DNA of 33,934 bases. It comes from Priapulus caudatus. Its lineage: Eukaryota; Priapulida; Priapulimorpha; Priapulimorphida; Priapulidae. The stretch lies in the NCBI RefSeq assembly GCF_000485595.1, contig NW_014577099.1, positions 412,433 through 446,366 of the forward strand, given 5' to 3'. The notes beneath the pieces were generated by a model. It saw only the letters and a program-made list of their open reading frames with translations, searched no databases and was not told where the DNA came from. The position numbers and the translations under genes were made by a program. Below are positions 918 through 30,295 of this stretch, piece by piece (position 1 is the first letter of the stretch; the number at the start of each line of letters is the position of its first letter).

Positions 918-1225
918 GCTGAGAGGGTCTATGTCCCCCGGGGTACTGCCGGAACGTACCCTGGGTAGGGTCCGGTATACCGAAACGTACCCTGGTACTA
1001 TCTAATATGCCGGACCGTACCTCGCCTACTCCACTAACGAGTCTAGGGAGTCACCTACGCCTACTCCCTAACCCAAACCCTAACTCTAACACTAACCCTA
1101 ACCCTAACCCTAATCCTAACCCTAACCATATCAAATAGTGACCAGGGTACGTTCCGGTATACCGGACCGTACCCAGGGTACGTTCCGGCAGTACCCTGGG
1201 TGACATAGACCCTATGACTATGAGC
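918..1225. mobile_element. Telomere-core foldback element, copy 1 (arm type A, inverted)
   Basis: The left end is GCTGAGAGGGTCTATGTCCC. The right end is its inverted counterpart, GACATAGACCCTATGAC, followed by a duplicated TATGAGC tail. The element is flanked by perfect 9-bp direct repeats CATACTGGC (909-917 and 1226-1234), a target-site duplication. The arms contain CCGGAACGTACCCTGG. Between them lie AGTAGGCG-type sequence and a run of CCCTAA repeats (about 1074-1130), here in C-rich orientation. No protein is encoded, so it must be non-autonomous. Open frames over the element are by-products of the repeat. Confidence 0.85.
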
Positions 1226-1234
1226 CATACTGGC

Positions 1235-2058
1235 AGTAGCAGTATCCAATTTATTGTGGAAGCGGTTGTGTGGTCTGCGAGTTACTACTGAAATGTGAAA
1301 TCGCCTGAAGGTTTACGATATTTTTTAATAGAAATAAGACGACCCCCAGATTAATTTATGCAGTCGTGCTTAAGTAGAACATAAGGTAATTCAACACGCC
1401 CGTGTATTTGCTCCATGGTCAATACAAATCGAGAGATGGTTAAAAGTAGCACTGTAGCGATATGTTTTTCGAAAGCGCTCTTTGCTAGAGGTCTAATATA
1501 ATTCAATAGAATAGTGGTTTACATTCGCGCGCATGCGCTATAGTACAACTTCCTTGTGACCCATTATACTGTACGAAGGCGGCGCTCACTAAGTGTTGCA
1601 ATACCTGCATGCGTGCCATTTTTTGGTACACGGCGTACGTTGCGACACGGCGCACAAGCAACGTTCGCAATTGCGCAACGGTTCAAAGCCCGGATGACAT
1701 ATTTGCTAGCGTTACTACGCACTTTGACTAACGGCGCGATTGCGCCAGCTGGGTGAGTTCTGGATGCTTCTGACGCTTGCTATCGCTCCTAATTGGGAGT
1801 TGCTGCGTAGCTGGCTGGTTGGCTGGTTGGTTGGTTGGCCAAGACCGTTCAGGGTCGAACGCGTTGGCTAGGCTGAGTCATGCGTACGCGTTTCTATTTA
1901 GCCAGGCTGCATGCGCCATCATTGAGCTCCAAGTTACATGCGAGTTGCGACGCACTTTGATACAGTGGTGTGTATGAGTAAGGCAAATGAAAAGGGGGCG
2001 TGAACCGTTTATGTGCAGTTGCCCTTGGTGGCACACGTTACTACGTCTTACTAGTTAT
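1235..2058. other. Gene-poor stretch with a CpG-rich patch
   Basis: About 1530-1760 is richer in G+C and CpG than its surroundings, with short palindromes such as GCAATTGCGC. About 1808-1840 has a (CTGGTTGG)-like microsatellite. A 66-residue frame at 1556-1756 shows no family similarity I recognise and ends at a GTGAGT-like word. I do not call it an exon. Confidence 0.4.
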
Positions 2059-2111
2059 ACCAAAGACCCTATATGCTGTATATACGTAACTAAGTATATA
2101 GGGTCTTTGGT
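2059..2111. repeat. Perfect 16-bp inverted repeat (hairpin)
   Basis: ACCAAAGACCCTATAT (2059-2074) is matched exactly by its reverse complement at 2096-2111, with a 21-base loop. The arms contain AGGGTCT, as do the termini of the foldback elements that begin 30 bp downstream, but facing the other way. It may be an internally deleted or related foldback element. I found no target duplication. Confidence 0.7.
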
Positions 2112-2140
2112 TGTACTCAAACAAAGAGGAAGTTAATATG

Positions 2141-2390
2141 GCTCATAGGGTCTATGTCCCCCAGGGTAATGCAGGAACGTACCCTGGGTACGGTCCGGTA
2201 TACCGGAACGTACCCAGGTAACTATTTGATATGGTTAGGGTTAGGGTTAGGGTTAGGGTTAGGGAGTAGGCGTAGGCGACTCCCTAGACTCGTTAGTGGA
2301 GTAGGCGATTGAGGTACGGTCCGGCATATTAGGTAGTACGTTCCGGCAGTACCCTGTGGGACAACCCTGTGGGACATAGACCCTATGAGC
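2141..2390. mobile_element. Telomere-core foldback element, copy 2 (arm type A)
   Basis: Ends are GCTCATAGGGTCTATGTCCC and GACATAGACCCTATGAGC. About four TTAGGG repeats lie at about 2233-2262, followed by GGAGTAGGCGTAGGCGACTC. The right arm is shorter than the left and contains a small CCCTGTGGGACA duplication. The left flank GTTAATATG (2132-2140) is not repeated on the right. Its reverse complement instead lies just left of copy 4 (2850-2858), as expected if the DNA between copies 2 and 4 has been inverted. Confidence 0.82.
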
Positions 2391-2402
2391 GACACTAATA
2401 AT

Positions 2403-2673
2403 GCTCATAGGGTCTGTGTCCCCCAGGGTACTGCCGGAACGTACCCTGGGTACGGTCTGGTATACCGGAACGTACTCTGGTAACTATCTGATATGGTTAG
2501 GGTTAGGGTTAGGGAGTAGGCGTCTCCCTAGACTCGTTAGTGGCGTAGGCGAGGTACGGTCCGGCATATTAGATTATGATAGTACCAGCAGAGCATATAA
2601 ATCACGTTGAATTATATGGACGGTAACCAGGGTACGTTCCGGCAGTACCCTGGTGGACATAGAGCCTCTCAGC
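2403..2673. mobile_element. Telomere-core foldback element, copy 3 (arm type A)
   Basis: Ends are GCTCATAGGGTCTGTGTCCC and GACATAGAGCCTCTCAGC. Perfect 9-bp target duplications ACTAATAAT lie at 2394-2402 and 2674-2682. The core holds about three TTAGGG repeats (about 2493-2514), fewer than in copy 2. Only 12 bp separate it from copy 2. No coding capacity. Confidence 0.85.
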
Positions 2674-2858
2674 ACTAATAATGAGCACACTACATATCCA
2701 TTTTTGTCAACACTTACTACAATCAAATATATGCATAATATTATAGGTACTCATATGTTATTTTCTGTAGATAGAAAGGGTGTGTGAATTGTCAGATTTA
2801 CAGTGTGAGTAATTATCATATTTAATCACCGACGAATAATTAAACATGCCATATTAAC

Positions 2859-3070
2859 GCTGAGAGGGTCTATGTCCCCCAGCGTACTGCCGGAACGTAC
2901 CCTGGTACTATCTAATATGCCGGACCGTACCTCGCCTACTCCACTAATGAGTCTAGGGAGTCGCCTACGCCTACTCCCTAACCCTAACCCCTTAACCCTA
3001 ACCCTAACCATATCAAATAGTTACCTGGGTACGTTCCGGCATTACCCTGGGGGACATAGACCCTATGAGC
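2859..3070. mobile_element. Telomere-core foldback element, copy 4 (arm type A, inverted)
   Basis: Begins GCTGAGAGGGTCTATGTCCC and ends GACATAGACCCTATGAGC. The core has C-rich telomeric repeats (about 2977-3009, interrupted by CCCCTTAA). The left flank CATATTAAC (2850-2858) does not match the right flank ATTATTAGT. It is the reverse complement of the left flank of copy 2. This is the shortest type A copy. Confidence 0.82.
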
Positions 3071-3082
3071 ATTATTAGTGTC

Positions 3083-3308
3083 GCTCATAGGGTCTATGTC
3101 CCCCAGGGTACTGTCGGAACGTATCCTGGGTACGGTACGGAATACTGAAACATACCCTGGTAACTATTTGATATGGTTAGGGTTAGGGTTAGGGAGTAGA
3201 CGTAGGCGACTCCCTAGACTCGTTAGTGGAGTAGGCGAGATACGGTCCGGCATATTAGATAGTACCAGGGTACGTTCCGGCACCCTGGGGGACATAGACC
3301 CTCTCAGC
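3083..3308. mobile_element. Telomere-core foldback element, copy 5 (arm type A)
   Basis: Begins GCTCATAGGGTCTATGTCCC and ends GACATAGACCCTCTCAGC. Perfect 9-bp target duplications ATTAGTGTC lie at 3074-3082 and 3309-3317. Two to three TTAGGG repeats lie at about 3176-3194, followed by the AGTAGACGTAGGCGACTC segment. It sits 12 bp from copy 4, head to tail in a cluster. Confidence 0.85.
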
Positions 3309-3317
3309 ATTAGTGTC

Positions 3318-3602
3318 TTTTACCTGTTATTCATGGTGGCAGTAGATGGTGACGATTATTAGTAATAATTGCTCCATATACTTTTCCCCGAGGTGTTTTG
3401 GGGTGTTCGTGGTGGGATATATGCCACCTTTGGTGGGAAGACATGATGTGAGCTATTTGTTTGAGTGTATCTAGTAATACGTAGTACTTAGCGAGTGCCA
3501 CTGAGGGCGACTGCACTTACACAACTAACATGCTCAGCATCGCCCCAATCTCCTGTCTACACTGCCACAGAACATTTCGAGTGCAGATCAGCCTCTAGCG
3601 CA
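3318..3602. other. Spacer between foldback elements, no gene seen
   Basis: Unique sequence with scattered stops. A frame at 3495-3755 runs into the next foldback element and is not supported as coding. Confidence 0.4.
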
Positions 3603-3611
3603 CACAGTAAC

Positions 3612-3830
3612 GCTGAAGGGGTCGTTGTCGTATCAGGTACTACATATATGTACCCGAGATACATATATGTATACACAAAGTGTACCAGACTTGTACTACA
3701 GAAGTGTACCCTAACCGTAACCCTAACCCTAAACATACCTCATATAAAAATATAAACATAAAACTAAACGACCTAAAACTACCTCGCGGTACATATATGT
3801 AGTACCTGATACGACAACGACCCTTTGTGC
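3612..3830. mobile_element. Telomere-core foldback element, arm type C
   Basis: The arms GGTCGTTGTCGTATCAGGTA...CATATATGTACC (left, from 3620; right, inverted, to 3823) are nearly perfect inverted repeats. They share no sequence with the type A arms. The termini GCTGAAGGGGTC and GCACAAAGGGTC (read inward) resemble GCTGAGAGGGTC of type A. Flanks are CACAGTAAC (3603-3611) and CACACTAAC (3831-3839), a 9-bp target duplication with one mismatch. The centre holds CCCTAACCGTAACCCTAACC (about 3708-3732) and then an AT-rich stretch. No coding capacity. Confidence 0.75.
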
Positions 3831-3839
3831 CACACTAAC

Positions 3840-4647
3840 CAACACCCTACACCTGTCCACATGTGATTAAATGCAAGTTTCTGCATTTATAAAAAAAATT
3901 CTGCAATGGATGAGCGAACATGAACCATACAATTTTTATTGTTATCAAGCGAACATTGCAGAGAACCCAACTCTCAGTGCTTTTGAATAGTTCCAGTAGA
4001 ATGTGATTTGACTGTTTTCCTATGGTTTAGTTCCGCTTATAGGAAGCCCTACCTTTGCACTGATTAAACTGTAGCATGCAAGATGATGCACAGCACGGAA
4101 GATAATTGACCGACATGTAACGCGTGACGTACAAAAACCTTCCCTACAAAACAATGCAAACATGCCAGATATGAAACTTGTTCTATTACAAAATGATATG
4201 AGTATGTAGTTATGAAAAACTGTATACTGTTGTAATTAAATGTTTATACATTTGTATCAAGAGTAGCATTTGTTTGTATTTAAAATTGTATGTGACGTGC
4301 ATCTAAATCGTGGCCTAAATGTGTTAGTTTAACTGCTCGTCAGATTTACACAGAATAGAAATAATTATTACCTGTATGCAATACCTGTATATGTTACCTG
4401 GCCCGCTATCTGTGCACATGTATAAAATAGTAATTATCTTTTTTCATGCTCTCTCCCTCTCACCTGTATACAATCTGCCATTTTCTCTTTTTCCCTTTCT
4501 CTCTATGTTCTTTGTCTATTCCCTCGAAAACAATCCTTTAATGTATATTGAACACAAACAGCTACTATCCCCTTTCTTGCTTGCTCATTTATTGTGACTA
4601 TATAAGATAATCACGATAGTTACACGGGCACACATTTTGAATTGCAG
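3840..4647 (+). other. Probable 3' part of a Tribbles intron
   Basis: Sequence left of the first visible Tribbles exon, ending in the acceptor TTTTGAATTGCAG (4635-4647). AT-rich, with a pyrimidine-rich CTCTCTCCCTCT-type patch near 4449-4505. I looked for an upstream exon encoding the kinase N-lobe or the metal-position segment that precedes the SLE motif and found none. The 5' exons are probably beyond the left edge. Confidence 0.5.
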
Positions 4648-4783
4648 GACGTCGCTGAAGCTAGACAGCCTAGACGATGCGTGGGTCTTGGACGAGGAAG
4701 ATGACATGCTATCAGACAAGCATGGCTGTCCTGCATATGCATCCCCAGAGATTCTTAATAGCACCAGCTCTTACTCGGGCAAG
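4648..4783 (+). CDS. TRIB: Tribbles exon: activation segment
   Basis: Acceptor AATTGCAG ends at 4647 and donor GTGAGT starts at 4784. The exon begins with the third base of a split codon and ends on a codon boundary, giving 45 residues from [14 protein letters not shown] to TSSYSGK. It covers the pseudo-DFG region and the CPAYASPE segment. Confidence 0.93.
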
Positions 4784-6410
4784 GTGAGTGGCTAGCATGC
4801 AAGGCAAGTTCGCTAAGAAATAAGGAATATACCACAGACATTGGCATTGCCATAATGTTGGGTAAATGTTAACAATCATGTGCATATTGTGGGAAAATAA
4901 GTAACTGTACAGGACACATGTACCAGCGTACCACCTGTTGTTGTGGGAAAAGTTGCTTTGTTAAGCCCATGTATTTGCAATCCAGCTTGGCGTCCATAAT
5001 TGTATTTTACAATGTGGTTTGAGTGTACACTACCATTTGTGATCATATCACACTAGGTATCTATAAGAAGTTGTATCGCGAGCTCATTATCAACTATAGA
5101 TTCTGCAGAGATGCCAACCACTACGATTTATCCGTATTTTATACGAATTTCTATTCCTTTTGCACCACTACGACCAGTTTGTATCAAACTACGAATTTCA
5201 CTGTGATCTTTTTATTTTTTTTTTGTCAATTATTGTCATTTTTTGTCAATTTATTGTCATTTTTGACCCTCAGACTGCAGGAAATTGCATCTCAGAATCA
5301 AAAAATTTTCCAGGGGTCATGCCGGACCCCCCTAGCAAACTCGGGTCACTACGTGACCCTCGAACTACTCATTTGATGACCAGAAACTACAGATTGCTTC
5401 AAATATGTGTTGGCATCTCTGCTTCTGTGAGACCACACGCTGCGTCTGACCACAGTCGGGTGAACTAATGCATGTTGGCTCCTCGTTTGCAATGCAGGGA
5501 GCAGACGTCTGGAGCCTTGGTGTGATGCTGTTCACGATGCTCATCGGCCGCTACCCATTCCACGACACTGAGCCGACGAAGCTGTTCAGCAAAATACGCA
5601 AGGGCCAGTACACGATCCCGGACACGGTGTCGTCACGTGCCAAGAGCCTCATACACAGCTTGATGCGGCGCGAGCCCGCCCAGCGCCTCTCTGCAGAAGA
5701 GGTGCTCGAACATCCTTGGTGAGTTGATGGCGTCGCCAGTCCTACCTTAATTGCACGACTTAATTGACTACCTTGTTTCGACACTCGGTAGGCCGCGGCC
5801 GATTCCATACCCTCGTCCGATCTCGGCTGTTTAATGCAGGTTGCCGTAGTTGAAACTATTTAGATTAGTCATGTTGGAAGTAGGTAATATTGTGAGAAGT
5901 GATTGCTCGTGGCAAAATCTTGATCGTAACATATGGTAAATTATAGTATTGAGCTCTGTCGTATTTGCAGTGATTCTGTTAAAAATTGCATTCTCAAAGA
6001 CCAAATTAGGATATTAGTTAATTTAGATTTAGGAAGTTATAGTTCCTCATCGTGGTTGCCCGTTCAAATTCCCACAGATCACGATATGTAATGAGTAGGA
6101 GCATATCACCTTTGGTATAGTTGAGATTAGGTGTAGATACAGAATCATCTGAGATGTTCCAGGTTACGTTTTTACTCAGCTGCTGTTTCAGTGCCTGCAA
6201 ATCAGTGAGGGTTGATACTTTATCATGAATTCTGCTTTTTGCGCTTGTATGAATATCAAAAGTAAACGTTGTCTATAATTGATTTGTTGTGCCATGTGCA
6301 GGTTTAACAACAGACACTCGTTCAGCCTTCCCCGGATGGACAAGGATGCTAAGGATGTAGAGCAGTTGGTGCCGAGAGAGATTGTGAGCGACGATGATTG
6401 GTTCACATGA
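4648..6410 (+). CDS. TRIB: Tribbles pseudokinase, C-terminal half (3 exons, 5' end outside window)
   Basis: Exons 4648-4783, 5498-5718 and 6302-6410 join in frame over canonical GT-AG introns to give the last 154 complete codons. In order: an activation segment where the family's SLE-type sequence (here SLDD, residues 7-10) replaces the DFG metal motif; [13 protein letters not shown] (22-34); the alpha-F signature ADVWSLGV (47-54); and the C-lobe ending VLEHPWF (114-120), matching the HPWF MEK-binding type segment of vertebrate TRIBs. A short tail follows with EQLVP (139-143), equivalent to the DQxVP motif that binds the E3 ligase COP1. Tribbles proteins are catalytically weak or dead scaffolds that bring substrates such as C/EBP to COP1 and modulate MEK/AKT signalling. 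That role is known for the family and inferred here. The family is usually about 330-370 residues, so roughly half is missing at the left edge. TRIB1, 2 or 3 cannot be assigned; a single ancestral gene is likely in a basal animal. Confidence 0.93.
5105..5422. mobile_element. MITE-like element inside the Tribbles intron
   Basis: The 14-bp word GCAGAGATGCCAAC (5105-5118) returns as its reverse complement at 5409-5422, bracketing about 320 bp. Inside are a T-rich stretch with repeated TTGTCAAT/TTGTCATTTTT (about 5224-5265) and a GGGTCAC...GTGACCC-type palindrome (about 5343-5363). No target duplication is clear. The paired termini suggest a small non-autonomous DNA element, but a chance inverted repeat cannot be excluded. 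Confidence 0.55.
5498..5718 (+). CDS. TRIB: Tribbles exon: pseudokinase C-lobe
   Basis: Acceptor TTTGCAATGCAG ends at 5497 and donor GTGAGT starts at 5719. It holds 73 codons plus two bases of the Trp of HPW. It includes [20 protein letters not shown], the [16 protein letters not shown] helix region, and LFSKIRKGQ, which is close to the SKIRRGQ of vertebrate TRIBs. A frame opening at ATG 5468 reads through the acceptor and is not the real start. Confidence 0.94.
6302..6410 (+). CDS. TRIB: Tribbles last exon: COP1-binding tail
   Basis: Acceptor GCCATGTGCAG ends at 6301. The first base completes the HPW Trp codon; 35 codons and TGA (6408-6410) follow. The tail carries [11 protein letters not shown] and ends acidic-aromatic, DDDWFT. 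Vertebrate TRIBs have Asp at the first motif position; here it is Glu, a conservative change. Confidence 0.92.
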
Positions 6411-7312
6411 ACTGCGCCAACAGCAACAACGCCAATCATTTCACATCTAGTCCACAGCCGTGGACATGTCGCGTGGTGGACGGCGACTTTCCGGCTCTAG
6501 TGCGCATGGACGTGTTTGTGCGTATACCCGCCATCGCTGTTTCATGCTTACAGTTGTTGTGATGTGTGTGTATGTGTGTCTGGCCGTTGTGCGCCCGTTG
6601 AATTTTAGCATGGTTCACGGTACATGACGTTGAGTGTGAAAAATCTGTGTAGGCGTTTTCGATGCGTGCTTAGTGCGTCGTGGCATGTATGATGTAGAGG
6701 CACGTACCGTGAAGTCGTTTGGCCTGTAGGTGCGGGGAGTGAGGATTTTTGTCATGTTGCGTGCTTCAGGTTTTACAGGCGTGTACTTTCATCGTTGTAA
6801 ATAAGAGGCAAATAGTAATTACAAATGTACAGAAGTTGACAAAGATCTCTGTGGTTGGATTGTTAGAAGATACAAAGTTTAAATTCTGTAAACTATGCCT
6901 AACTTGTAAGAATATGTGTACAGTTGTTCATCAAATTCGATCAGTTCTACTATGATTTAGAGGTAAAGATAGGAGAGAGCATATGAGGTGTGCATGGGTG
7001 AGTCTGGGCGTGGCTTGAATGTGTGAGCATGTGTACGGATGTGTGCGTGCGTTATGTGCACGCGAGTATTTTCTCATTTCGGCTCACAAGCTGTATTCTT
7101 CTGAGCAGCAAGTCAGCCAGCCGAGTGTTTGTCTGTCTCAGTGTGGGTGAATGGTATCATAGTAACAAAACTCCACATCTGACCCCAAGTATTTTATATG
7201 TAATACGGCGATATGTCCAACTTAAGTTTGACAAGATTCTGTTAGCATCTACTCTCTTTCAACATGTTCAGCACTGTCGTTTGCATTTTTAATTGTGTAA
7301 TGTTTTATTAAA
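6411..7312 (+). other. Probable Tribbles 3' UTR
   Basis: AT-rich, GT-rich sequence directly downstream of the Tribbles stop codon, with no recognisable coding sequence. The first near-canonical poly(A) signal I see is ATTAAA at 7307-7312. AATAAA hexamers at 9648-9653 and 10798-10803 are later alternatives. Extent is inferred. Confidence 0.45.
7307..7312 (+). terminator. Candidate poly(A) signal ATTAAA
   Basis: The first ATTAAA-type hexamer noted downstream of the Tribbles stop, about 900 bp away. TRIB transcripts usually have long 3' UTRs, so AATAAA at 9648 and 10798 are equally plausible. Confidence 0.3.
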
Positions 7313-9713
7313 TGATAGTAATTATCCTGCCTATGAAGCGGGAGCAACTATGTCATAAAGTGACCTGTGGAAACTAACGTTTGATAAAATGAGTGTTTTA
7401 GATGGCAAGACTTGATATTAATGTACATTTGATGGTAGCACATGCAATTTTTAGTAACAGATTACTTTTTCAAGTAGCACTTATAGTAATAAGCATCACA
7501 CAACATGAAAAACTAAATTATTGAACTGATACTGTTGTGTTCTTTTTAAACCTCACTGTTTGCTAAGTCGACTGGAACTTCTTTTAAAGACAGTGGTTTG
7601 TGAATTTGTCAAACGTTTGACTGCAATATTATGGTATGTTAATATCAAGCCTTGAGTAAGTTTAAATTTAGTATATCTTGTTTCTTACTTTGAATCCAGT
7701 AAGCCGCATACCTTAAGTCTGGGTGCATCCCATCAGAGTAGTCATACATGCATGGTACGGGTCCGTCAAATAGGGTGTGTGGTCATTCCGAAATTCGCCA
7801 TTATCATATCCTAATTGGCAGGACAGTTCACCTACACTGTGGCATAATAGGATGGGCACAGACTTGTGCTATATATATGCGAGCAAATTTCAAAGTTACA
7901 GCTACGATATGTTCTACTATTACGCAAACCGCATGAATACCTCTAAACGGACCGATAAAAGCCCTGGTAGGGTTGGAGCTCCGTATGGATTTCCGCACTA
8001 GCACTTGATCCCTCACACTTGTGAGTCACCGGTTATGTGCATTGCAATAGTATAGTAATAGAATTAAAAGTGGCTGTTTTAACGGCAGTGACCAATGCAA
8101 GTTTAATTAGGAGACGTATTTGCTGCACAGCGTTTACTATTGAAAGTACGTAATCTTCTCCCAATGTAACGCATGATCAACTTCATACATGCTTTCTATT
8201 GAGGTTTATTGGATAAATTGGGACCAGTTTGCTTTGACTTGTTGTCTTACGCGTTGTCTGGCTGCTCTCACACACTTGTTACGTGCCTGTAGGTATTGAA
8301 AAGCGTTTCTCTATTGGTTACTGCCGAGTACTACTTATTGTTCTGTTCTCTGCTTCAGATTTTTTGGTTATTTTTCTGATTGTCGTTCGTCTATTGGCAT
8401 TAAACATTACGCGTAGAAGTACGAGCTAAAGTCAAATGCTGTCACGTGCAAGTGAATTTTATACCACAAGTCTAAGATGCACAACAAATCCAATAGGTAT
8501 ACATTAGCTGTGCCTGTAGTTTCCATGTCTCTGTGCTGTTTGAATATGTCTAGGCACGGCAGTGTACTCGTGGCTGTACATGTAGTAGTAGCAGCAGTAA
8601 GATATCGTCACATATTTTGTAGTGTGTGTCAACCAGGGCTAGTTGGCCCCTGTGTCGTTACCGTTTCCAAAAAACACATAACAGTGAATGTGCGCAGGGA
8701 TTTGCAAGCATGTGTACTGACTGTGCAACGTAACAACACTTCACAAGGCTCACCTAGTGTAATTTGGATTCAACTGACAAGATTATATGTTTTCATATTT
8801 TCTGTATTTGGTCTAAAACTGCGACTGTGGATGCTTAACTATTGCTGTCACACTTGGCACCTGTTTATGTTTTGTAGATGTCATCAAGATGTTAAACCGT
8901 TTAAAATAGGACTTGTTCGATTTAATTACGTTCTGATAAGTGTGTTCTGTGTATCTTTACCTGTGCGTATACAATATTTTAATGAATGTTGAGTGTGTGC
9001 TGTTCAGGCATCCAAAGCCAGTCGTCATCATTATAGTACAGTATATTACAGCACTTATCGTACATATGTACATTTCTGGGTAGAAACCGCAGTATAATTT
9101 CTTTGTTTTATCTCCGCAGACATGTACATGTGTGCAGTGAGTTCCGCGTGCCGTGTTGTAGAGCATACTAAAACTTTGCCAGCTCCTATAACTGTTTTCC
9201 GATGTAAACGTTCGCGTATTTACGTCTATGGAACGTTGTAAAGACCTATTTTGTAACCGCAAATCACACTAGTTCATACGTTTTTATAATCATCAATTTG
9301 TAAAAGATGCTGCTAACATGGTTTTTACGAGAGCAGGCCTTGGTAACACACTAAAACTATTAATTTGTGGTGTTAAGTGATGATGCAATGTACCTGCAAA
9401 CCTACAAGTGCAGTTTTGCTACGAAATCTTCATAATTGAATTTCATACAAATACAGTAATCAGTATAGTCGGTCTATCGTCACGCGACTATCTTCTGCCG
9501 TGTAAACCGTCTGCACTGCACGTATGTAGATGCTCGTCAGTTATGTGGTAGTAGTAGCTATTGTGTATCTGCTATTCAGAAGCACTCTAGAAATGGCCTG
9601 CTGTACAGATGGTAATATCACTTGCGGATCCCACACTTCAGCGGTAAAATAAATGCTTGTGACATACATAAATGCTTGTGAAGCAGCTGTTGATTTTAGC
9701 GCCACAGTTTCTG
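7313..9713. other. Convergent intergenic region, no gene recognised
   Basis: AT-rich with scattered GTGT words. A 171-codon frame (8477-8992, + strand) is the longest uninterrupted frame outside the repeats. It is rich in Cys, Val and Leu and has no family motif I recognise. AATAAA at 9648-9653 is followed by two copies of AAATGCTTGTG. Nothing else is supported. Confidence 0.4.
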
Positions 9714-9780
9714 TGAAGAGAAAGAGTGAGAGAGAAAGAGCGAGAGCGAGAGAGAGGGAGAGCGCTCGCGCTCGCGCGCT
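9714..9780. repeat. (GA)n microsatellite running into a GCTCGCG palindromic patch
   Basis: Imperfect GA/GAAA repeats (about 9714-9762) are followed by GAGCGCTCGCGCTCGCGCGC, a self-complementary CpG-rich patch. It is a simple-sequence repeat with purine/pyrimidine strand asymmetry. Confidence 0.85.
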
Positions 9781-11301
9781 AGAGGGTAGCTAATTTAAAG
9801 CTCTGTATAGGCGAGTGGTATATCATCATGCATCCGCCTGACTACATTGCCAATGCAGATTTAACACGGTTGGTGTCCCTTGACGTGATATAAACGACCT
9901 GGACGTTTCAATAGATTGGGAAAACTTCTGGTCTGGTAAATCTTTACCATTCAAGAGGGTGTGCGATGTTAGTACGTCGTAATGCGTTATCGTAATGTGT
10001 GCTGACGTCGTTTCACGCGGGAGTTCGCATGCTCCTTAGGCTGAGAATGGAAATTTATGCATTTTTGATGGAATTGCTGCTTCACGTTACGGGTGCAGCG
10101 CTATACGTGGTTATTGGTGGATGGCGCAACCATAACGCTGCAGTTGTATGATCTGGTCTGTTCTGTGGCTAGTCTTGCAACAACCATCATTAGTAGTGTG
10201 CAAGAGAAGATTGATCTCACAAGTTGCGTGAAGTAGATGGCTGCTCGTTATGACACGTATAAGTTATCTGTTCCCTTCCTCTCCGTTTCTCTCTGTTCAT
10301 ATCTTTCATTCATCAGTTCACTGGCACACACGAACAAACAAAGGCGCGCGCGCGCACTCTCTTCTCACACATATATTTATCACCCCCTTATGCAAGCATG
10401 TGTCCGGACAACCTGATAATGATCGCACTACATGAATGACAGGTGCTGATCCCAAGCTGACCTTTGGGTTTTATGCAAATATATCCTGTTTCTGAAATCG
10501 CTCGACGCTGTATGGAAAGTTTGGAGTTTGTCTTTAGTTGCATCTCTGTGTAGGCTGAGCGGTGAACGCGGTATGGCCCGTTGCGCTCGTAAAACTTCAC
10601 ATACTCTCCTGGAAAACATATAAAAGATGATAATGCAGTAGCGATGTAACGTATATGTGGCGCTACGCGCCGGTACGATAAACCGTATCACCGCCTGTCC
10701 GTCTAGTGTTGTTGTTACTCGTGGTGTCCCAGTCGTTGCACAACACTTCTGTACGAACCACGCCGTATTCTTCAGGAGTGAAAGTATTGCCGTTCAAAAT
10801 AAATGTTGAAATTATCGTCTCTGTAGAATGTTTTATTTGCTGGCTTTGTCATGTGTAGTTATTGCCGACCAGAAAAACAATTAAGATACTAAATAGAAAA
10901 CTTTATTCATTTTTCAGTGCTCTACACAAAGCGGAACATTTCGACCATTGTCAAGTATTCACACTAAACATATTTCCCAGTAAGAAACCATTCAAATTAT
11001 ATATCAAAATTCATGCGTAAATGACAGTGGGAATGTACAACTACGCTCTTTTCACTTATTTTGCATCACCTTAATTAGTCAACACATTGACGACCGCAAA
11101 AATTACAACTTTAACACTTCCTTTTACAAAATAAGCTTGATTAACACGGTTATCAACTGACTGTAGGAAACTAGACGAACTTGACTTATTATAGTCAGTC
11201 TTTTTACAAGATACTTACCCATACCTTTCTCTCTTCTTCTCCCTTGGTCCTTCATGGTAAAGAGCACATTCTTGGACGTTATAGTAGCGATATATATGGC
11301 G
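9781..11301. other. Intergenic, no gene recognised
   Basis: Contains a CGCGCGCGCG run (about 10345-10357) and AATAAA at 10798-10803 (+), followed by T-rich and GT-rich sequence. A reverse-strand AATAAA at 10907-10902 could serve - strand transcripts. Frames on the - strand at 10388-10691 resemble no known protein. Confidence 0.4.
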
Positions 11302-11310
11302 GTCAGTGAT

Positions 11311-11473
11311 GCTCGTAGGGTCTATGTCCCCCTGACCTCTGTTTGACCTGGCTCGTTTAGATATTTCTGACTAACCCTAACTGTAACCCTAACCCTATAT
11401 ATATATATATTAGTCAGAAATAGCTAAACGAGCCAGGTCAGACAGAGGTCAGGGGGACATAGACCTTATCTGC
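11311..11473. mobile_element. Telomere-core foldback element, arm type B
   Basis: The terminal 22 bp (GCTCGTAGGGTCTATGTCCC + CC) match type A copies. The arms are unrelated to type A: TGACCTCTGTTTGACCTGGC then TCGTTTAG...TTTCTGACTA, repeated inverted on the right. Perfect 9-bp target duplications GTCAGTGAT lie at 11302-11310 and 11474-11482. The apex is CTAACCCTAACTGTAACCCT, then CCCTA and (TA)n (about 11373-11411). At 163 bp it is the smallest member and almost entirely hairpin. Confidence 0.85.
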
Positions 11474-11482
11474 GTCAGTGAT

Positions 11483-12468
11483 GGGGGAAAGTTGTAAGAA
11501 TTCAGGATTCAGGATGCCGTTGCCCGAAATTTAGACGAAGACATCAATAGAGATTGGGCGTAGGCAGAAAGAGGGAGAGGTAGAGCAATGCACTATAGTA
11601 GAGGTAATTCCATAACACAAGATAACTTTGTAATATGATTTATGACATGCCATGTCTATCCTTTAACACTTTTGGTGAAGGTCCAGCAAATATATAAACA
11701 GCCGAAATTCACCAGTAACTCGCCGCTAAAAATCCATAAAAACACCACAGCTTGCAAACATGATGGACATTGACTGAAAAGTTTTACTGAATGTGGGATT
11801 AGTCCCGCATTGCTCAATACAGATGATTATAATCACCTAACCAAAGATCGATCTATCTGTACCGGTCAATAGCTGTTTATATGGGTGTTTGTTTAATTTT
11901 GCTATATCCTTCACATCTAGATGCCAAATACGCGATAAGATCAGTTACTTGAAGATTTGCTTGGAATTTTGTCAGCTAAGCAAAATTATGTGTATTTCGT
12001 CATCAGTTAGAGTGAATTTTACACAAAATTGAACTCTTACGCATGTAAATAACAAATTTATACAACTCTAAAATAGAGGTAAGATAGATACTCGCGGAGG
12101 AAAAACGCTTCAGTGACCAATATGGGAGTCGGATGAATAAAGAGAAGAAGAAAATAGATGTATAAAATGATCAGCAATGACCACACGTTTTTCTCTAACA
12201 TTTTTCCTTGATAAACAAACATGAAACCATATTCGGAAACTCAAGGCACACATCATGTGTGAATGGTAAAAACTAATCACAAACACAAAATTATTTAAAT
12301 GATTTAACTGTGAAGACGATTTGGTAACAATTGTGATTACACCACCTAGAGATCTCAGTTTCACCAGTGACCTATTCTGGTATAGTTGGTCAAAGCTTAC
12401 TTAAAAGATAACGCAACTCCAGCTTTAGGACAAATAACAATAATTTTAACAATCTTCTCATAAAGCTA
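11483..12468. other. Downstream of ERGIC3, no gene recognised
   Basis: AT-rich unique sequence beyond the ERGIC3 3' end. No conserved exon, RNA gene or transposon end was recognised. Confidence 0.4.
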
Positions 12469-12474
12469 TTTATT
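12469..12474 (-). terminator. Candidate ERGIC3 poly(A) signal
   Basis: AATAAA on the - strand, 20 bases after the stop codon (12494). This would give an unusually short 3' UTR. A second AATAAA at 10907-10902 would give about 1.6 kb. The choice is undecided. Confidence 0.4.
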
Positions 12475-12493
12475 GCTATGCAAATGTCGAACC

Positions 12494-12573
12494 TCAAGAG
12501 GCTTTCCCGAGATCTATTTTCTTCTGTATCATTTTCGCAGAATGAAAGATGAAAGCGTCTACCAGGCCTGCCA
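12494..12573 (-). CDS. ERGIC3: ERGIC3 last exon: end of TM helix and cytosolic tail
   Basis: Acceptor TTGTTTTAG precedes 12573. It completes the split Val codon, then 25 residues from AGLVDAFIFHSAKM to KKIDLGKAS, and TGA at 12496-12494. The tail differs from human KKIDLGKTT only at the last two residues. Confidence 0.94.
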
Positions 12574-15500
12574 CTAAAACAAGCAAGAAAAACGTGTTAT
12601 AACATGGAGGTGTTGGTCTAACTGGTTTCAAATATACAGCTTACAAATGCTAGTAGAGGAGCACACACATATATTATAATACATACATTCATAACACATC
12701 ACAAAATGAAATAAATTTGAGCTTGCGATATCTATAAATGAATGTGGAATTAAGTTCAAGCTCCCTTGTTGAAGGTTGAAAATTCACTTCTGCTGTCAGT
12801 GGTACTAGCTTTTTCTCTATCACCCCCGGCAACCATTGCAAAGTCCCCCGAAAGTTGACAAGCTGCACTGCATCAGACTGCACAAAATGTCTGGTCCACG
12901 TTATGGTTTACATGTCACTGCTGCTCGTGACTTTCCTTGCCAAACACTCGGTTTTGTATGGACGGCAGTACGAGATCCAGCCTGGTTCTTGGTCACTAAA
13001 TACTCTTAAACACTAACTCCGCTGGTGCTTTGCCTGTAGTTGCCTGTGGTGTTACTCGATACATAGACAAGAAGCGGTGCAGAGGGTCCTCCACCAGGTC
13101 ACTCTGGGATAGCTTGCGTCCCATTTTCACTGTTTGCATGGCCCTCTATGCTAACCCGTCACAGGCTGGGCGGTATGGGCAAACATTTAATGTGCCTAAT
13201 ACGGTTTATTTGCAGACATTCTTGAATTCCGCACTGGTAAAATATGTGCTGTGCCGTTCATTGTCTGACACGATCGTACTCGGCAGTCATAGGGTCACAA
13301 ATGTCTGCCGGAGTTTAGTGAGTATGGAACTAGTTGTTGCAGCTGTTACCACAGGAGCATCAATATATTTACTCGCCTCGACAATGACAAGAATCATTCG
13401 TCCATCCAATGGTTCTGCATAGTTAATATGAGTGATGTTATGGCTGCCCTGGCCACTCGCATGTGTATCGGCACAGATGGCGGCAACTGGCGATGGATCT
13501 GGCACATACCACAATCTTTCACCTGTTCTTGTCAGCGTCTATTCCCAGCCACCAGACGTAGCTGCATGCTAATGCTTTCATCTTCACAATTCCTGGGTGG
13601 GTTCCATGCAACTTTTGCACCATTAGGTCACAGCATTGTGGTGGAAGTTGGAACAATGACTCACATTCCCCATATTAACACACCTTCTTCAACCCTCAGT
13701 TCATTTAGCTTATCACTGTAGGAAGGCAACGCCTGAACAACTACCCTCCCCCCACCATAACACAAAATCACCCTAAGCACAATTACCCCCAGGCAATCAC
13801 TCCCTGACAATCCCCCCAATGATTTTAGTTCGATTTGTTTTTTGATTGGGTTTACCACACTTGTGTCATGCCTTCCCTCATGCTGAGCATGCTTTCCTGT
13901 TGTAGGACGCGGCCTCGCACGATAGACCTGCACAGGCTCTACCGTAACTTTTGTGTGCAACATAGTTGTCTCACGTGTCCTTGACGGTAGCAAGGTTACA
14001 AACATAGGTAATTCAGATAGTGTCATGTCAGTATCATTAACTCCCTTTATCTTCATTTCCCATCCAAACACTTCTGTTAGATCTGAGAATTTATCTCTAT
14101 GTTTTTATCATGGAAGTCTAATTTTTTTCTTTGTGGCTGCAAACAGGAGTGAAATTTATCTAGAGCTTTACCGGTTTGCTGCGTAGCCTATCGAAATACT
14201 AAAGTGTCATATTCCCTAATTTGCTTTGGGGCAAAATAATCGTCTAGTTCGGCTTTCATCGGGGCATAGGTGTCACTATCTATCACTCCAAGTGCTTCAC
14301 TAGGATCAAACCCTTCTTCACCGGGCAACAGGTAGAAGTAAGGCTTTCTTTTGTTTATCAACTGCAACGTCTGCGTTTGCTAGCTACCAGACAGTTCTCA
14401 AAACAATATGTCCATCGTTCCCAACGAGAGCCTGATCTTTGATTGTTGCACAGAAGATGGCTTTTCTCATTGCAACCATATATCAAGAATATAAAGTGCA
14501 AAGGGTGAAGTCGTTTATATTGGTGACATTGCAAATGTTAGGATATTCTCCAAGCATCCTCTTACCATGTTCCATGAGCCTCTTACCATGTTCCATGAGC
14601 CTCTTACCATGTTATCATGAGCCAAATATAGCGACATGAATTTGCAACCGAGTTGAAATTCTATGCATTTCGGAACCAGTCTGTAGACGTATACAACATA
14701 AACATTTTAAATGTCTAGCAGCAATTTGTTGTTGGTTAAAAAGTCTGGTAGAGTCGAACAGTTAGGGTATTTATGAACATGGTAATGATATAAGAGCTAC
14801 ATACCTGTGAACACTCCTCCAATGATTGCACAAACTCCTGTGAGAAAATGGAAGAATGACCTGAAACAGATAACAACAGTTATATAACAATTACACTGTA
14901 ATGAGCTGCCCAAAACCCAACTTTTGATTCATATAAGACAAGCGTCTGGAGATGATATCAACAAGAATAATTTAATGTCATATAAAAGCAAGTGCAAGAG
15001 ATTAGGAATAAATAAAAACAGATTTTATTTTATTTATTCACTTCTGATGAGATACTACTAAAAAGAATACGAATAAAATTATCATTACCTTTTTTGCTCT
15101 GTGTATTTAACCATCATAGGTGAGAGCTCATACATCATGAACATTCCAGGTAGCCCCTGGTCCCCACTCGTTGCTGATACTACTTTAGAATTGGTCGTAA
15201 TTGAGTACTGATTTGTGTACAAAACCTTTTGGGATAAAGTGAAATATAACGTAAGATTTTAAATCGATTAAATCCTTCACTGGATACAAGACATGCTCGC
15301 TAACATTTGCGAGCTGCATCACATCTGCATGAGACAAGAAGAATTTATATTGTCTTCACATATATGTTTGAAGCATTTAATATTACATGATCGACATATA
15401 CATTTTTAAAATTCAAGGCACTTTTCTCTATTACAACTGCAGAAAATTTAGCCATGTACTATTAATAAGGCCTCCAGTAGCAAAAAGGTAAGTGGAGCAT

Positions 15501-18500
15501 GGGACAGGTCTGACTAATCAATATACTAGCTCTGAACCTGAATACTCAGCAGTGAAGTGTGAAAGAACCGAGTGGGAAATTTAGTGCTCGCTCGCTCACT
15601 AGTGCCAATACTATTTCAGTTTAATTACAATTAACACCCTGTACAGACTGTAAAATTTGATCCTACGTTTAACTTTTCTGGGTCAGTCCCTGGCCAGACG
15701 CGCGCTAATTCGCAGCGTACAAACAACACTCAACAAACCGGGTTGAGGTAGCATGAGTTGGCTGCGCATGCTTAGTTTAGCATGTAACGTCTCATAGCAG
15801 ACAGAAATTGCAGAAAAAGCAACAGCTGTAATAACAGCAAAAGAAGAATATTAACAGATTACCAAATACACAGCAGTATCTTTTATCAGCAATAGAAGTA
15901 CAAATATGCACATTTTTATGTGTGCCTTCCTATACCCTTTGTGTAGATTCTTTTGACCACATTGCAGTAAGATTCTTTACCTCTTTGTCATCCCAAGGAC
16001 TGCATGCATTTGCCATTATATGAACCAAGTTGTTTATGCTATATTAGTATACACTATAGTGAGTTGCAGATCAAAAATGAAATTGCAGACAATTCCAGTT
16101 GCGTTTTTACTTTTAATATATAGGTACTCAAACAAGGCTATGCGCATGTTCATATAGAAATTTACCCCACATCTGGTCTGGTTTACTTACCCACACAGTT
16201 TAGCCCCAGATAACAACGTACAGGATAACTTTTGGGATAACGCGGGCATGGCCCACCTCATTGCGTTTACCAGGGCATGCCAGGATAATCGGAATACCCA
16301 TATTCAATAATACGCCCAGTAGCGCTCATAGGGTCTATGTCCCCCAGGGTACTATCGGAGGGTACCCTGGGTACGGTTCGATATATCGGAACGTACCCTG
16401 GTAACTATCTGATATGGTTAGGGTTAAGGTTAGGGTTAGGGTTAGGGGTAGGGAGTAGGCGTAGGCGACTCCCTAGACTCGTTAGTGGAGTAGGCGAGGT
16501 ACGATCCAGCATATCAGATAGTTACCAGGGTGCGTTCCGATATGTCGAACCGTACCCAGGGTACCCTCCGATAGTACCCTGGGGGACATAGACCCTATCA
16601 GCCCCAGTAGCTTCTGCTGTGTATTTTGTGTCTGTATGCTGTGATTTAGCAAGCGTACCACGAGCCTGGCTTGGACTGGTTTGATATAGCATTAAAATTT
16701 TGCAGTCTGTACCGTCTACTAGTTAGGACTTGTGTGTATTTAGCCCTAGACAGAATGTAAACACTGGAAAAATTTAGTCTGGGCTAGAAGATCAATTTTG
16801 TAGTCTCTCTGTATGGGGTATTAAATATGACTGCGAATGTTGCTTGAGGGATAGTTTGCATTTGATAAACGGCCTTATCTGACCACACTATGACAAGGTT
16901 AGTTTGATTTTAGAGAGGTGGGCTAAATCCCAACATATATATTTTACCAGCTAGGGGAATTTTTTTATCATACCACTTTCTACAACGTACTGTATAAGCC
17001 GTATTTTCTGAGTACAGATATTTTGGCGAATTCAGACTTGACAGACAATTTTTGCAAGTGGTTAATTTTGCGGTCGGTGAATTATGAATTATTCGGTATT
17101 ATTCAGTATGAACTATTCGCGTGTTTTTATTTTCACGGTAGGGGATGCATTCGCGAAATTCGCGAAAATTAAACCACCGCGAAATATACAGCTTATACAG
17201 TAGTCTACTATGCTACAGGGATTCCCCACCAGGTTCCTTCATACGTTGTACAAGCACGCATATAAATAAATAAATATATATATATACTTTTTCAACATAC
17301 TTTTTCATCCAGATTTAAATATGTTGTCGGCACAATCTTCACAAAATATTGAAACATCATTTGATCTGGAATAAAGAATTATAATAATACATGATTTATT
17401 ACAATTACACATTACACACAGAATTAGCAGTTGTAGCCACTATTTTGAATCAATATAATATATTGAAAATAAATTTATATGAACATTTATGAAACATTTT
17501 ATGGAATATTTTTCAACAATGGATTAAAAACATAGGTTTTATATGTATATATATTATCAGGAGTGAATAATAAAAATAATCTATTATTATTCACTCATTA
17601 TGTTATGAATATTATATACACCCTATTTCACTGTAAATTACATTGTTATACTAAACATCGTAATAAAATGGCATATATCACAGTACAGAAATAGATTTAT
17701 AAGGGAATGAAATGGAAATTTAAAGTAACCTTCGCGCTGCGTATGCAAAAATAGCGGGCTCAGCCGGGATTTGAACCCGGGACCTCTCGCACCCGAAGCG
17801 AGAATCATACCCCTAGACCACTGAGCCAAATCACAAATAAGGATATTCATTATTCTTTCTTGTCATATGATCAACATATTCACAAACCAGTTTTTGTTAA
17901 GGATCGTTTTATGTAATTTTAACATGTCATATAAAGCATAGAACGACCGCAGGTTATAACTAATGTGATGTTGGCTTTAAAATTGAGCTTCCGATTTCGT
18001 CACGAATTTATACTTTGCCTGGGCGCACAGTATGAATCATTCATCCACCTGGTGGCGCTACCATCCAATGACGGTGTATTGCCTCAGAACACGTACACAG
18101 TATCAATATTGCCTACGCGCCCTGACTGCAGTCACTACATGTCACTCGTCTAATAGCAATAGCACATGAAGTATTAAAGGCATACTAGGCCCATTGATTA
18201 TGCAATGTTGACGAATGCTAGAATAACTGGCACCTTGTGTAGTTAATAATTACATAACCTTATTACATCCAAACGAGTATTAGTTTGTCCAATATGCTGG
18301 TTACTAAGAATACCTAAGATGTCTAATTGAAATCCGCAGTCCAAAAAATCAGTTGTTTACAGTTTCAAACCGCTGCCGGCGAAGCGGGTGTGATGCAGAT
18401 TTATAGTGCACCGGACATTTTCGCACGCATGCTCGGCCGTACGCAATGCTATCATCAGTGATTTCGTAAACACGGACGCCTGTGATAAGGAACTTTTTGT

Positions 18501-21500
18501 CAGGGCTGTCCATGTGCGTCCGTGATTAGTACTCGTGTTTTACTCCATTTCCATGTTTAGTCTGTGGCCGTGGTTACACCGCTGACACCTACATTTCATC
18601 TGGCGTCCAAAACATATGGGCCGCACAAATGTTTACGTCATCAATTGACTCCTGGATGACATTTACGGCACGTAAATAAATATCAACAACCGATTTCAAG
18701 TCTTGCTTGTAATGTAACCAGCAGTGATATTGGACAAACTAATACGCGTTTGGCTATAAGGTTATGTACTTATTAACTACACAAGGTGCGAGTTACTTTA
18801 GCATTCGTCAACATTGCATAATCAATGGGCCTAGTATGCCTTTAATAATATGGGCACCAGTCTGAGGTTTGTGGAAAGACGGCGTGAACATTAATTGCCT
18901 ATATTAAAGACACAAGACATTGCTCCTATTTTGTGGATCCTAATATCCCAAAATATCTGCACAGACGTAACACGACGACTTTCTTTAAATGAATTATTAA
19001 AGGTGCCTGCCCTTATTAACACCTACTTCAAGAAAAATATGGGGAAAAGTTGATAATTAAACCATCATGTCACAATATCCTCGAAATTACAATTATTCCC
19101 ACTTGTTCGCATTGGAAACATAAGGAAATCGGTAACATTCTGGTTCATTTCGATACGATTGTTGGACTTCCTGAAATGACATCAGCAGGAGTCCATGTGA
19201 CTCTGAAAATTCTGCTATACATAACTAAAAATCCACGTGTAACGATTTAAGATGCTTGGTAAAAAGAGAATTATGAGTATAAGAGAAAAGCATTGAGACA
19301 CAATCAGTAAAACCATGAGCTACCAAGCATTGACTCAACTACAGAGTCGATCGCTACTGTCACCAGCCCACGCAACACAGGTTAAACAGTGCAGTCTAAC
19401 GGCACACAGAAAACGACTTCAGCACCCGGCTACCTACCTTTGTTATTATACTGAAGTGAAATATAATACATTGTTAAATATATTTACAATGTATTTTGTA
19501 TCATTAAGTATACTGTTACTGTTATATAATACATTGTTAAATATATTTACAATGTATATCAGTGATGTATATGTTACAATCTATTAATAAAACAATACAT
19601 TGTTGTATACTGAAATATGAATATACTGGTTTCAGTTTTAAAATCACATTTTGTAGTAATCTACAGCAGATAACACAATATTTCAATCTTACTTTCCAGT
19701 GATTACTATAATTTGTGTCATGCATTATCTTGATCTGTAGTTTCTCTCTTCGTACGACTTCCTCTTTTTGAGGGCACAGGATCAGTTTGTTTCTCTTGAT
19801 AAAAAGTTTACCAGGCCAGCTTTGAAGTGTGCCATTAACCCATCAGACACCTTCCCACCCTGAGGAAACTCCTACATGCAAACTGTGTCTGGAATGTGCA
19901 CATTCCTGCAACTAGCGTATTGCGCATAGAATTTTCTGGGTATAAGGTACTAATTTTATTTTAAATTAATTCACTCTCGCTCCCAGCATTATCACTACAC
20001 TCTGTCACATCATTAAATAATCAATATTTATTTTAAAATGTTTCCCTGCATTCATAATTACGCTTGAATTAGGGGAGACACATAGAAACACATCTTAAAT
20101 TATATAATGGAAGTGAAGTGGAAAACGTGACACACATAACGGAATTTAATATTGCTATTGTTTTTTTCTGGGACACATTACTCTTGTTTTGTGTGGTATC
20201 ACAGTACCATGCAGTAAAAGTAGTTGTTAAAGATTCATTACTCTCAGAAATATAAATACCAGTGAATGTGAATAGGACAGACAATTGCTTAAGTCTGCTT
20301 TTGGGCTCATCCTAATACCTGATCAACACACATAAAACTAAACACATTTGACATTTGCATCCATGGTCATGCAGCAGTGAACCAAATTGTATTTGTAGCT
20401 TGCAAATCTTTTCATAAAATACACACAATTATGTTTCAACTCCCTAATGGTTGTAAATTTTGTTTTAATGTAAAAAGTTATCTTCCACATTAAGCTTATT
20501 TCTTTAAATAAATACATGGAAAGAATAGATCATCACATGCATAAATTAGTTGCTTACTGTGTTTGTTAGAACACATAAAAATCCTTTCAAGCCATAGAAC
20601 GACATTTGACCCCTTAAACTCATATATACACGCATAATACATTTTTTAATTGCCATTATATCTCAAATAGGAAAAGTTGTTGAAGCTCTTTAAATTTGTG
20701 CAATGATTGTGTTGTTCTCATTTGACCTTTAGGCACCAACTCTGACCTGGCATGACTGTTTAAAGCTTGACCCTTGATGCATAATTATTATCAACATAGT
20801 AGATGAAACCAGCGGTCCAGCACATTTAGATTTCGAAGCATTATTCTCGATAGATGGATGGAGGCATACACACTATTGCCACTCTACAAGGTCTATTTCA
20901 TTATGAGAGATGAAATAAAAACATTTTACCTTTATGAGCCACGACTTCCAGGTGATCTAGTGGGTTTTGCAGACCAGGGTAGTCCTGACCGAAGGAAAAG
21001 TGCTTAATGGAGTGGGTCATGTTAAACTGCAACAGAGAGGCAGCAAAATATATACAGGACACATCCTTCTATTGCAAGAGTACAAATTACTATACATATA
21101 ACCTAGTTCTCAGACATTTACTTTTACATATATACATATATAAAGAACATTTGGGTTTTCATTGAGCGACTCTTACATACAGGCTCTACGATTTGTTAGA
21201 GCACATATTCTAACCATCAGCTACTACAGCAACATACAGAGCTGATACAACAGTGAATACAGCAGACAATCTCCTCTTATAGAACAGTTATGTCATAGAG
21301 ACGTTGCACAGTTTTTTCGCATCTCATATAATTTGACATAAACCCCACCATTATTGCTGTTGTGCTACATAATCAGTGTTACACTGTACTGACTTAATTA
21401 AAAGTGAAAGATCATGCTTTATCTTACCTTTGTACCTGAAAATGCCTGCAAGTCATGAACTGTAAAAAATCAGAATCTTTATCATTTAAAATAACTTTGC

Positions 21501-28144: not shown

Positions 28145-29395
28145 TCGTAGTTAGCCGGTGTACGTGCACACGCCACGCACGTGTACGTGCACACGCACGC
28201 ACGTGTACGTGCACACGCCAACGCACTTGGACGTGCACACTCGCCACGCACGCCCGAATCTGTTACGCCTGTGCACCTGGCCACCCGCTACGGCTGTTGA
28301 CTTGTGGCACACGCACGCACGCACACGTGCCAGCAAGCACGGCGGTACGCACGTGGTACGTGCGACAACGCACGCCGACGCACGTGTACGTGCACAGCGC
28401 ACGTCACGTGTCTTTATCGTGTGCGATCAACACACGCACGCACGGTGGCACTATGACCAGGCAACGCAAATTCTGCACGTGTAGGCACGTTCACGTGCAC
28501 GCCCTACGTGCACACATCGCACGGCAGCCCACGCTATACGTACACCAGCCACGCCACGCACGTGCTACGGTGCACACGCCACGCAACGCTCGTTACGTGC
28601 CACACCGTGCCCCACATATAACGCACCGCCTACACGTGCACAATCACGCACCACACGTGGCACCAATCACACGCACGCACGTGTACGTACACGACACACG
28701 CCACTGCCCGTGTACGTACCACAGCGCACGCACGCACTGACGCATCGTGTACGTGCACACGCCACGTACGTCGTAGTCGTGTTACGTGCACATCACACGC
28801 ACGCACGCACGCACGTGACATGCACACACACGCACGCACCACGCAACGCGACCACGCTGCACATGCAGCGCTACGGCACGGCACGCTACGCACCGTACGC
28901 ACGGTACGTGCACCTACGCATCCACGCACGCTGTACTGTTGCACGCCACTACGCCACGTGCTACCGGTGCAGCACACGCCTCGCACGAACGCACGCCGCA
29001 CAGCGTGCACGATTGCACGCACGCATCGCAATAAACGCACGTGTACGCCTGCGACCACTGTACACACGCGCACGTGTACGTAGCACACGCACGACGCATC
29101 GCACGCCTGTACGCCGCATGTTTACGCTACCTCCACCACCGTGCACGCACCGATCGGTGGTACCGGTACACACGCACGCACGCACGTGTGTACGTGCGCA
29201 CACGTCCTCACGCCACACACGTGGTACGTGCATACACTACGCACTATATATCTGTTGCATGCATGCACGCACGCACGTGGCCTTGCTTGTACCATCGCAC
29301 ACGCCACGCATTCGCACCGCTAGCGTGTAACGTACACACGCACGGTACGTACGCACGCCACCGCCCAACCGTGACGCTGTCGCTTGCTTCATGAG
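28145..29395. repeat. 1.25-kb degenerate ACGCACGTGTACGTGCACAC array
   Basis: Built almost entirely from CACG, CACGCACG, GTGTACGTGCACAC and GCACACGC words. The first four units are spaced 22-24 bp (TACGTGCACAC at 28161, 28184 and 28206; a variant at 28230); spacing then becomes irregular. Long sections alternate purine and pyrimidine strictly, and the + strand is C-rich over G. Edges are abrupt: unique sequence up to about 28144 and after about 29395. Long frames over it on both strands (for example 28120-28740 and 28710-29330) are Thr/His/Arg/Cys/Val-rich repeat translations, not proteins. Confidence 0.9.
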
Positions 29396-30064: not shown

Positions 30065-30295
30065 ATCTCGCGTTAGGTTAGGGTAGCGTTTACGGTTAGG
30101 TTAGGGATATAGGCGTTCATGGGTTAGGCGTTAGACGTTAGGGTTAAGCGTTTAGAGTGGGAGGCCCTACCACTGACCCGACCACTCCTCACACTGTGGC
30201 GCCTCACCCCGCACAGAGCTGCCGGGGGATTAGTCCTTACCCCGAACCTAACCCTACAACCTCTACACCTAGGAACCCTAACCCTAACCCTAAAC
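30065..30295. repeat. Degenerate telomere-like tracts facing each other, with GGACTAATCCCC block copy 2
   Basis: The left part (about 30073-30155) has G-rich GTTAGGTTAGGG and GGGTTAGGCGTTAG variants. The right part (about 30244-30294) has C-rich AACCTAACCCTACAACC and AACCCTAACCCTAACCCTAA. They bracket a GC-rich centre (30160-30240) whose reverse complement resembles 27370-27430. The inverted telomeric arrangement recalls the foldback elements, but no AGGGTC termini or 9-bp duplication is visible. Confidence 0.65.

Follow-up and report, generated by a model that had tools for sequence, protein, structure and literature searches.

Foldback elements with telomeric cores in Priapulus caudatus very probably form a target-selective DNA transposon family

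Interstitial telomeric repeats are commonly ascribed to past fusions of chromosomes or to repaired breaks. The elements described here carry such repeats in the core of a hairpin. They are located in a window of 33,934 nt (the whole stretch that was analyzed) of nuclear DNA of Priapulus caudatus, that is, C39:412433-446366 of a 385-Mb assembly with 2,952 contigs, C-numbers being the contigs of this assembly. Very probably, they belong to a family of non-autonomous foldback DNA transposons which selects its targets and by which telomeric repeats are spread.

Tandem repeats are integral parts of transposable elements in general, according to the accessible text of PMC5615363. Neither this text nor the available part of PMC6532368 describes telomeric repeats inside foldback elements or miniature inverted-repeat transposable elements (MITEs), and in the literature covered, which excludes most subscription papers, no described foldback or MITE element with a telomeric core was found. 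Similarly to the interstitial telomeric sequences treated in the accessible part of PMC6410037, the present arrays are short and lie inside chromosomes, but in this family the vehicle, its ends and the target duplications are directly visible.

Among the described transposons, Mutator-like elements (MULEs) produce target duplications of 8-11 bp, and Rehavkus produces 9 bp with terminal inverted repeats (TIRs) of 26-400 bp (PMC6446971, accessible sections). The duplication length and the long TIRs of the Priapulus family lie within these ranges, and internal tandem repeats are also common to it and Rehavkus. Rehavkus differs in that it is described with a transposase of the PHD-finger type and with a minisatellite that precedes its 3′ TIR, whereas in the regions read no transposase was tied to the family ends. 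Tm1 of root-knot nematodes, as presented in the available sections of PMC3169594, is a foldback family as well: its inverted repeats are long and composite, it duplicates 9 bp of the target, its transposase is MULE-like, and short MITE-like members accompany a longer coding one. The duplications of Tm1 show no clear target consensus and the string "telomer" is absent from the main text as available, in contrast to the present family, which has the target NNNANTNNN and mostly telomeric cores. Galileo of the P superfamily (PMC2775673, accessible part) also has long inverted repeats, and its consensus GTAGTAC is likewise centred on AGT. Its duplication of 7 bp is not shared by the family, whose copies have 9-bp duplications of the NNNANTNNN type; a P-type transposase was not searched for.

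The preliminary description of the window, made from its sequence, had reported eight elements with telomere-type cores, and all eight were found at the places indicated.

918..1225, minus strand (the TTAGGG strand): E1, complete foldback element; perfect 9-bp duplication CATACTGGC at 909-917 and 1226-1234
2141..2390, plus strand: E2, element with two GCTCAT-type ends; flanks GTTAATATG on the left (2132-2140) and GACACTAATAAT on the right (2391-2402)
2403..2673, plus strand: E3, complete element; perfect 9-bp duplication ACTAATAAT at 2394-2402 and 2674-2682
2859..3070, minus strand: E4, element; flanks CATATTAAC on the left (2850-2858) and ATTATTAGTGTC on the right (3071-3082)
3083..3308, plus strand: E5, complete element; perfect 9-bp duplication ATTAGTGTC at 3074-3082 and 3309-3317
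3612..3830, minus strand: E6, second subfamily with the end GCTGAAGGGGTCGTTGTCG and a telomeric core; duplication CACAGTAAC/CACACTAAC (8/9) at 3603-3611 and 3831-3839
11311..11473, minus strand: E7, same end, unrelated arms (CTGACCTCTGTTTGACC...), telomeric core; perfect duplication GTCAGTGAT at 11302-11310 and 11474-11482
16324..16602, plus strand: E8, complete element with a long hairpin; perfect duplication CCCAGTAGC at 16315-16323 and 16603-16611

Each of the eight contains at least two telomere-type hexamers. A single sequence plan, previously ascribed to all of them, is common to E1-E5 and E8; E6 and E7 have the end type of the other six but different arms. The 9-bp duplications reported for six copies are present, five of them perfect (E1, E3, E5, E7 and E8) and that of E6 with one mismatch. 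Inverted arms within the elements were detected by a repeat finder, among the 25 of 92 pairs listed, in E1 (73 nt, 95%), E3 (65 nt, 85%), E7 (72 nt, 89%) and E8 (93 nt, 97%). For instance, E8 as single-stranded DNA is predicted to form a single long stem whose loop holds the telomeric array, with an energy of -120.5 kcal/mol versus -38.1 +/- 3.7 in 200 shuffles.

The search of the whole genome with the terminus, which the preliminary description had proposed, was made with 20 bases of it. When up to three mismatches were allowed, 2,794 matches were found in forward and 2,758 in reverse orientation (5,552 in total), versus 3 and 0 for the reversed pattern used as control. At two ends per copy, these matches would amount to some 2,800 copies, and ends of greater divergence are missed. 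A looser pattern, which excludes C after TGTC, gave 550 and 514 matches (control, 1 and 0); these overlap with the matches of the terminus and the two counts are not additive. Among 100 of its matches listed, 55 were by eye of the E6 type and the other 45 showed variant forms of the main end, GCTGAT in about half of them. The exact terminus had no match in viral and other contig collections and none in phage, where eukaryotic repeats are not expected. Hairpin-forming inverted repeats, a duplication of fixed length and many dispersed short copies, the features by which foldback and MITE elements are defined, occur together in this family.

In order to examine individual copies, a sample was composed of the window, 40 stretches fetched from the assembly at the first-listed terminus matches (one perfect end each) and three further stretches: L054, which entered by chance as it lies beside a MULE, and L057 and L058, taken from the matches of the looser pattern (L-numbers are stretches fetched around matches). 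Facing ends less than 700 bp apart formed 51 pairs, and both flanks were readable in 48; 21 more end matches stayed unpaired, some of them being chance matches. Including the end motifs, 48 of the 51 pairs span 151-345 bp. In 30 pairs the two ends differ, GCTCAT being the left one and GCTGAG the right one with respect to the TTAGGG strand, an asymmetry which is expected of a defined element. Identity to the consensus ranges from 79.6% to 98.8% in 46 aligned copies, and its median of 95.3% suggests a fairly recent spread.

The flanks show that many of these copies were inserted with a duplication of the target. They agree at 8 or more of 9 bases in 29 of the 48 evaluable pairs and at all nine in 20, whereas in 5,000 shuffles of the partners the number of agreeing pairs averaged 0.86 and never exceeded 6. 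An earlier pass with fewer loci was similar (16 matches out of 29, 11 of them exact; null mean 0.83, maximum 5). A match of flanking 9-mers at chance level had been named beforehand as the outcome that would speak against transposition, and the agreement is far beyond it. The 26 distinct duplicated sites have A at position 4 in 25 cases and T at position 6 in 25, both together, that is, the consensus NNNANTNNN, in 24, of which 18 have A[G/C]T; the outer bases are weakly symmetric. The target is therefore the palindromic NNN-A-N-T-NNN. Flanks of E6-type elements fit it by eye: TGCAGTAGG flanks the element of L055 on either side, ATCAGTAAC does the same in L012, and L056 has CCTACTGAG and CCTACTCAG, with two extra bases at one end. 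As a separate observation, three copies in L017 (2595-5725) have an identical 9-bp duplication, CAAAGTAAG, and identical outer bases, which is an indication of a local duplication including the element; they are duplicates of one insertion.

TTAGGG is present in 49 of the 51 paired copies, with two or more occurrences in 47. It is missing from L011, the interior of which consists of other sequence, and from L038, a pair of only 56 bp. Moreover, L055 and L056 contain E6-type-ended elements of about 1.6 kb with a long GGA-rich repeat core and no TTAGGG (L055 includes a gap of 682 N, L056 none). The claim that the core is always telomeric consequently holds in the window but fails across the genome. 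At 594 places of the genome, three pure hexamers run straight into the AGTAGGCG core; the control gave none. An E6-type end lies close to two of the core matches listed, at about 50 bp or less (C19:554805 by 554747 and C20:100046 by 100117), and the core module seems to be shared between the subfamilies.

The proposal that the telomeric repeats are the cargo of a transposon is supported by the terminus counts, the duplications and the 594 fixed core junctions. The arrays could instead be ordinary products of break repair or chromosome fusion around which palindromes arose, and runs of at least three hexamers are indeed found outside the paired copies: 9 out of 34, two of which are in unpaired family copies, against 25 within pairs. 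This count refers to the stretches from L009 onward and the window (275,619 bases without N), which were selected because of the family, and should not be read as a fraction for the whole genome. On the contrary, independent repair events would not reproduce the shared ends, the asymmetric end pair, the 9-bp duplications and a fixed AGTAGGCG junction at hundreds of places, and this origin of the arrays is hardly credible. A transposon which carries telomeric repeats with visible ends and duplications offers a direct alternative route to interstitial arrays, and calls for caution when interstitial TTAGGG signals are interpreted in cytogenetics. It also allows tests of the action of telomere-binding proteins or telomerase on mobile DNA.

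Certain observations weigh against a transposon family of this kind. The sample consists mostly of first-listed terminus matches with one perfect end, and is biased toward intact copies. Flank agreement is below 8 of 9 bases in 19 of the 48 evaluable pairs; recombination, small indels and assembly errors are our explanation, which for most of these pairs is conjectural. In the regions read and at the ends among the matches listed, neither an autonomous copy nor a transposase linked to the family ends was found. In detail, 46 MULE-domain matches exist in the assembly, and among the seven that were read, in six regions, no MULE is demonstrably bounded by family ends. The long copies L012 5053-7244 and L027 4976-6867 contain other sequence, in which no transposase was seen by eye, a domain search not having been made.

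The ends in L037 and L042 resemble those of longer elements, and no transposase was seen by eye within about 0.9 kb inside each end. The same end with a different sub-terminus has only 23 copies in the assembly, and by eye none of them shares its contig with any of the listed MULE or Merlin matches. Family copies do occur near MULEs: in L054 as a separate short insertion, and in L051 as an end beside an assembly gap, which leaves some doubt. No exact end motif is present at the corresponding place in front of the sister MULE copy 4.4 kb upstream.

These results bear on a narrower assignment, namely that to Mutator-like elements (MULE or Rehavkus) moved by a MULE transposase of the Priapulus genome. 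Both the 9-bp duplications and the length of the inverted repeats agree with MULEs, the values given above for Rehavkus and the foldback structure of Tm1 with its MULE-like transposase point in the same direction, and MULE-domain matches are at hand in the assembly. On the other hand, none of those read is demonstrably end-bounded, the duplications of Tm1 are without a clear consensus while those of the family have one, and 11 Merlin-type matches exist in the assembly too. The Mutator-like assignment is thus a serious candidate, with a probability slightly short of even.

Independently of the superfamily, the non-autonomous foldback family would operate as follows. Its members would be short transposons, mostly of about 150-350 bp, whose GCT-NNN-(A/G)GGGTC..TGTC ends would be recognized by a transposase supplied in trans. 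Insertion takes place at the two-fold symmetric NNN-A-N-T-NNN, mostly A[G/C]T, with a stagger of 9 bases as read from the duplications and the targets, presumably by cut and paste. The central module GATATGG-(TTAGGG)n-AGTAGGCGTAGGCGACTCCC... would travel as a passenger, the telomeric tract having probably entered the core of an ancestral hairpin once or a few times. Later transposition has dispersed the interstitial telomeric arrays, as the copy number, the duplications and the mostly different flanks show. The copies are near-palindromic and, thus, neighboring ones can recombine in either orientation; judging from the flanks of one cluster, this may produce chimeric copies, exchanged duplications and small inversions.

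The cluster in question is E2-E5. Neither E2 nor E4 has its own duplication. However, their left flanks are reverse complements of each other (GTTAATATG at E2; 9/9 bases), and so are their right flanks (12/12). The simplest reading is that the segment between them was inverted by an exchange between E2 and E4, which would be the two breakpoint copies.

2391..2858, no strand: putative inverted segment of 468 bp that contains E3, proposed from the reverse-complementary flanks of E2 and E4

When the segment is turned back, GTTAATATG would form a normal 9-bp duplication, and the remaining copy would come to lie between E3 and E5, flanked on either side by ATTATTAGTGTC. These two flanks, together with the two GCTCAT ends of this reconstructed copy, are as an unequal crossover between E3 and E5 predicts. 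All three like-ended copies in the sample, E2 included, are without a matching duplication; among the 29 evaluable normal-type copies, this applies to 9 (Fisher p 0.044, a post hoc test on our own tally).

Alternatively, the cluster could have arisen by mis-assembly or from insertions that occurred independently. Assembly gaps do lie inside repeats (L012, L051 and L055), which can therefore be mis-joined, and the variant GGGTAATGC, common to the left of E2 and the right of E4, is outside the predictions of an inversion; it may reflect gene conversion. Against this stand the flank matches at 9/9 and 12/12, the reconstructed copy with its two GCTCAT ends and the missing duplications of the like-ended copies, so that an artefact or independent insertions are unlikely. 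Exchanged duplications and chimeric copies at breakpoints are also the evidence for the inversions attributed to Galileo in the accessible part of PMC2775673. What is new here is the mutually reverse-complementary flanks of E2 and E4, fitting a 468-bp inversion by recombination between copies, and the cluster is a compact candidate case of inversion between neighboring foldback copies.

Telomeric hexamers were also observed elsewhere in the fetched stretches. At L014 774-1095 there is a foldback unrelated to the family, with the ends GGYGCRAATCCACTTTAGGCACC and, by eye, the 8-bp direct repeat GTTACTTT on both sides. Its arms terminate inward in (CCCTAA)4 and (TTAGGG)3, and a portion of the same arm, including TTAGGG, recurs in L012 near 5345-5392. 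In a MULE-bearing region (L050 1518-1680), (TTAGGG)4 is followed about 110 bp further on by CCCTAA repeats in inverted orientation. At L012 960-1070, (TTAGGG)3 adjoins the palindrome CAGAGCATATAAATCAAATTAGTTGATTTATATGCTCTG, a similar half of which is located inside E3 near 2587. Hairpins whose arms are unrelated to each other (those of the main family, E6, E7 and L014) thus have telomeric tracts at or near their centre, which makes recurrent acquisition worth testing, and the long E6-type elements have GGA-rich tracts. Hairpin apices of the Priapulus genome might recurrently gain G-rich repeats, with breaks at the apex healed by telomerase or templated repair and the products multiplied by the transposase into much interstitial telomeric DNA, but this scenario is speculative and rather improbable.

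As regards the rest of the window, Tribbles-like exons are located at about 4648-6410, and the relatives of the encoded protein in a protein search are animal. A small palindrome, CCAAAGACCCTATAT...ATATAGGGTCTTTGG, lies at 2060-2110, directly before E2. A 53-bp tandem repeat occupies 234-461 (4.3 copies, 93% matches), and an inverted repeat unrelated to the family is found at 18172-18847, with 92-nt arms that are 96% complementary and 492 nt apart. Degenerate telomere-like stretches outside the eight elements are located at 30065-30295 and 32595-32715, the former coming after a ACGTGCAC-rich repeat region at about 28150-29370.

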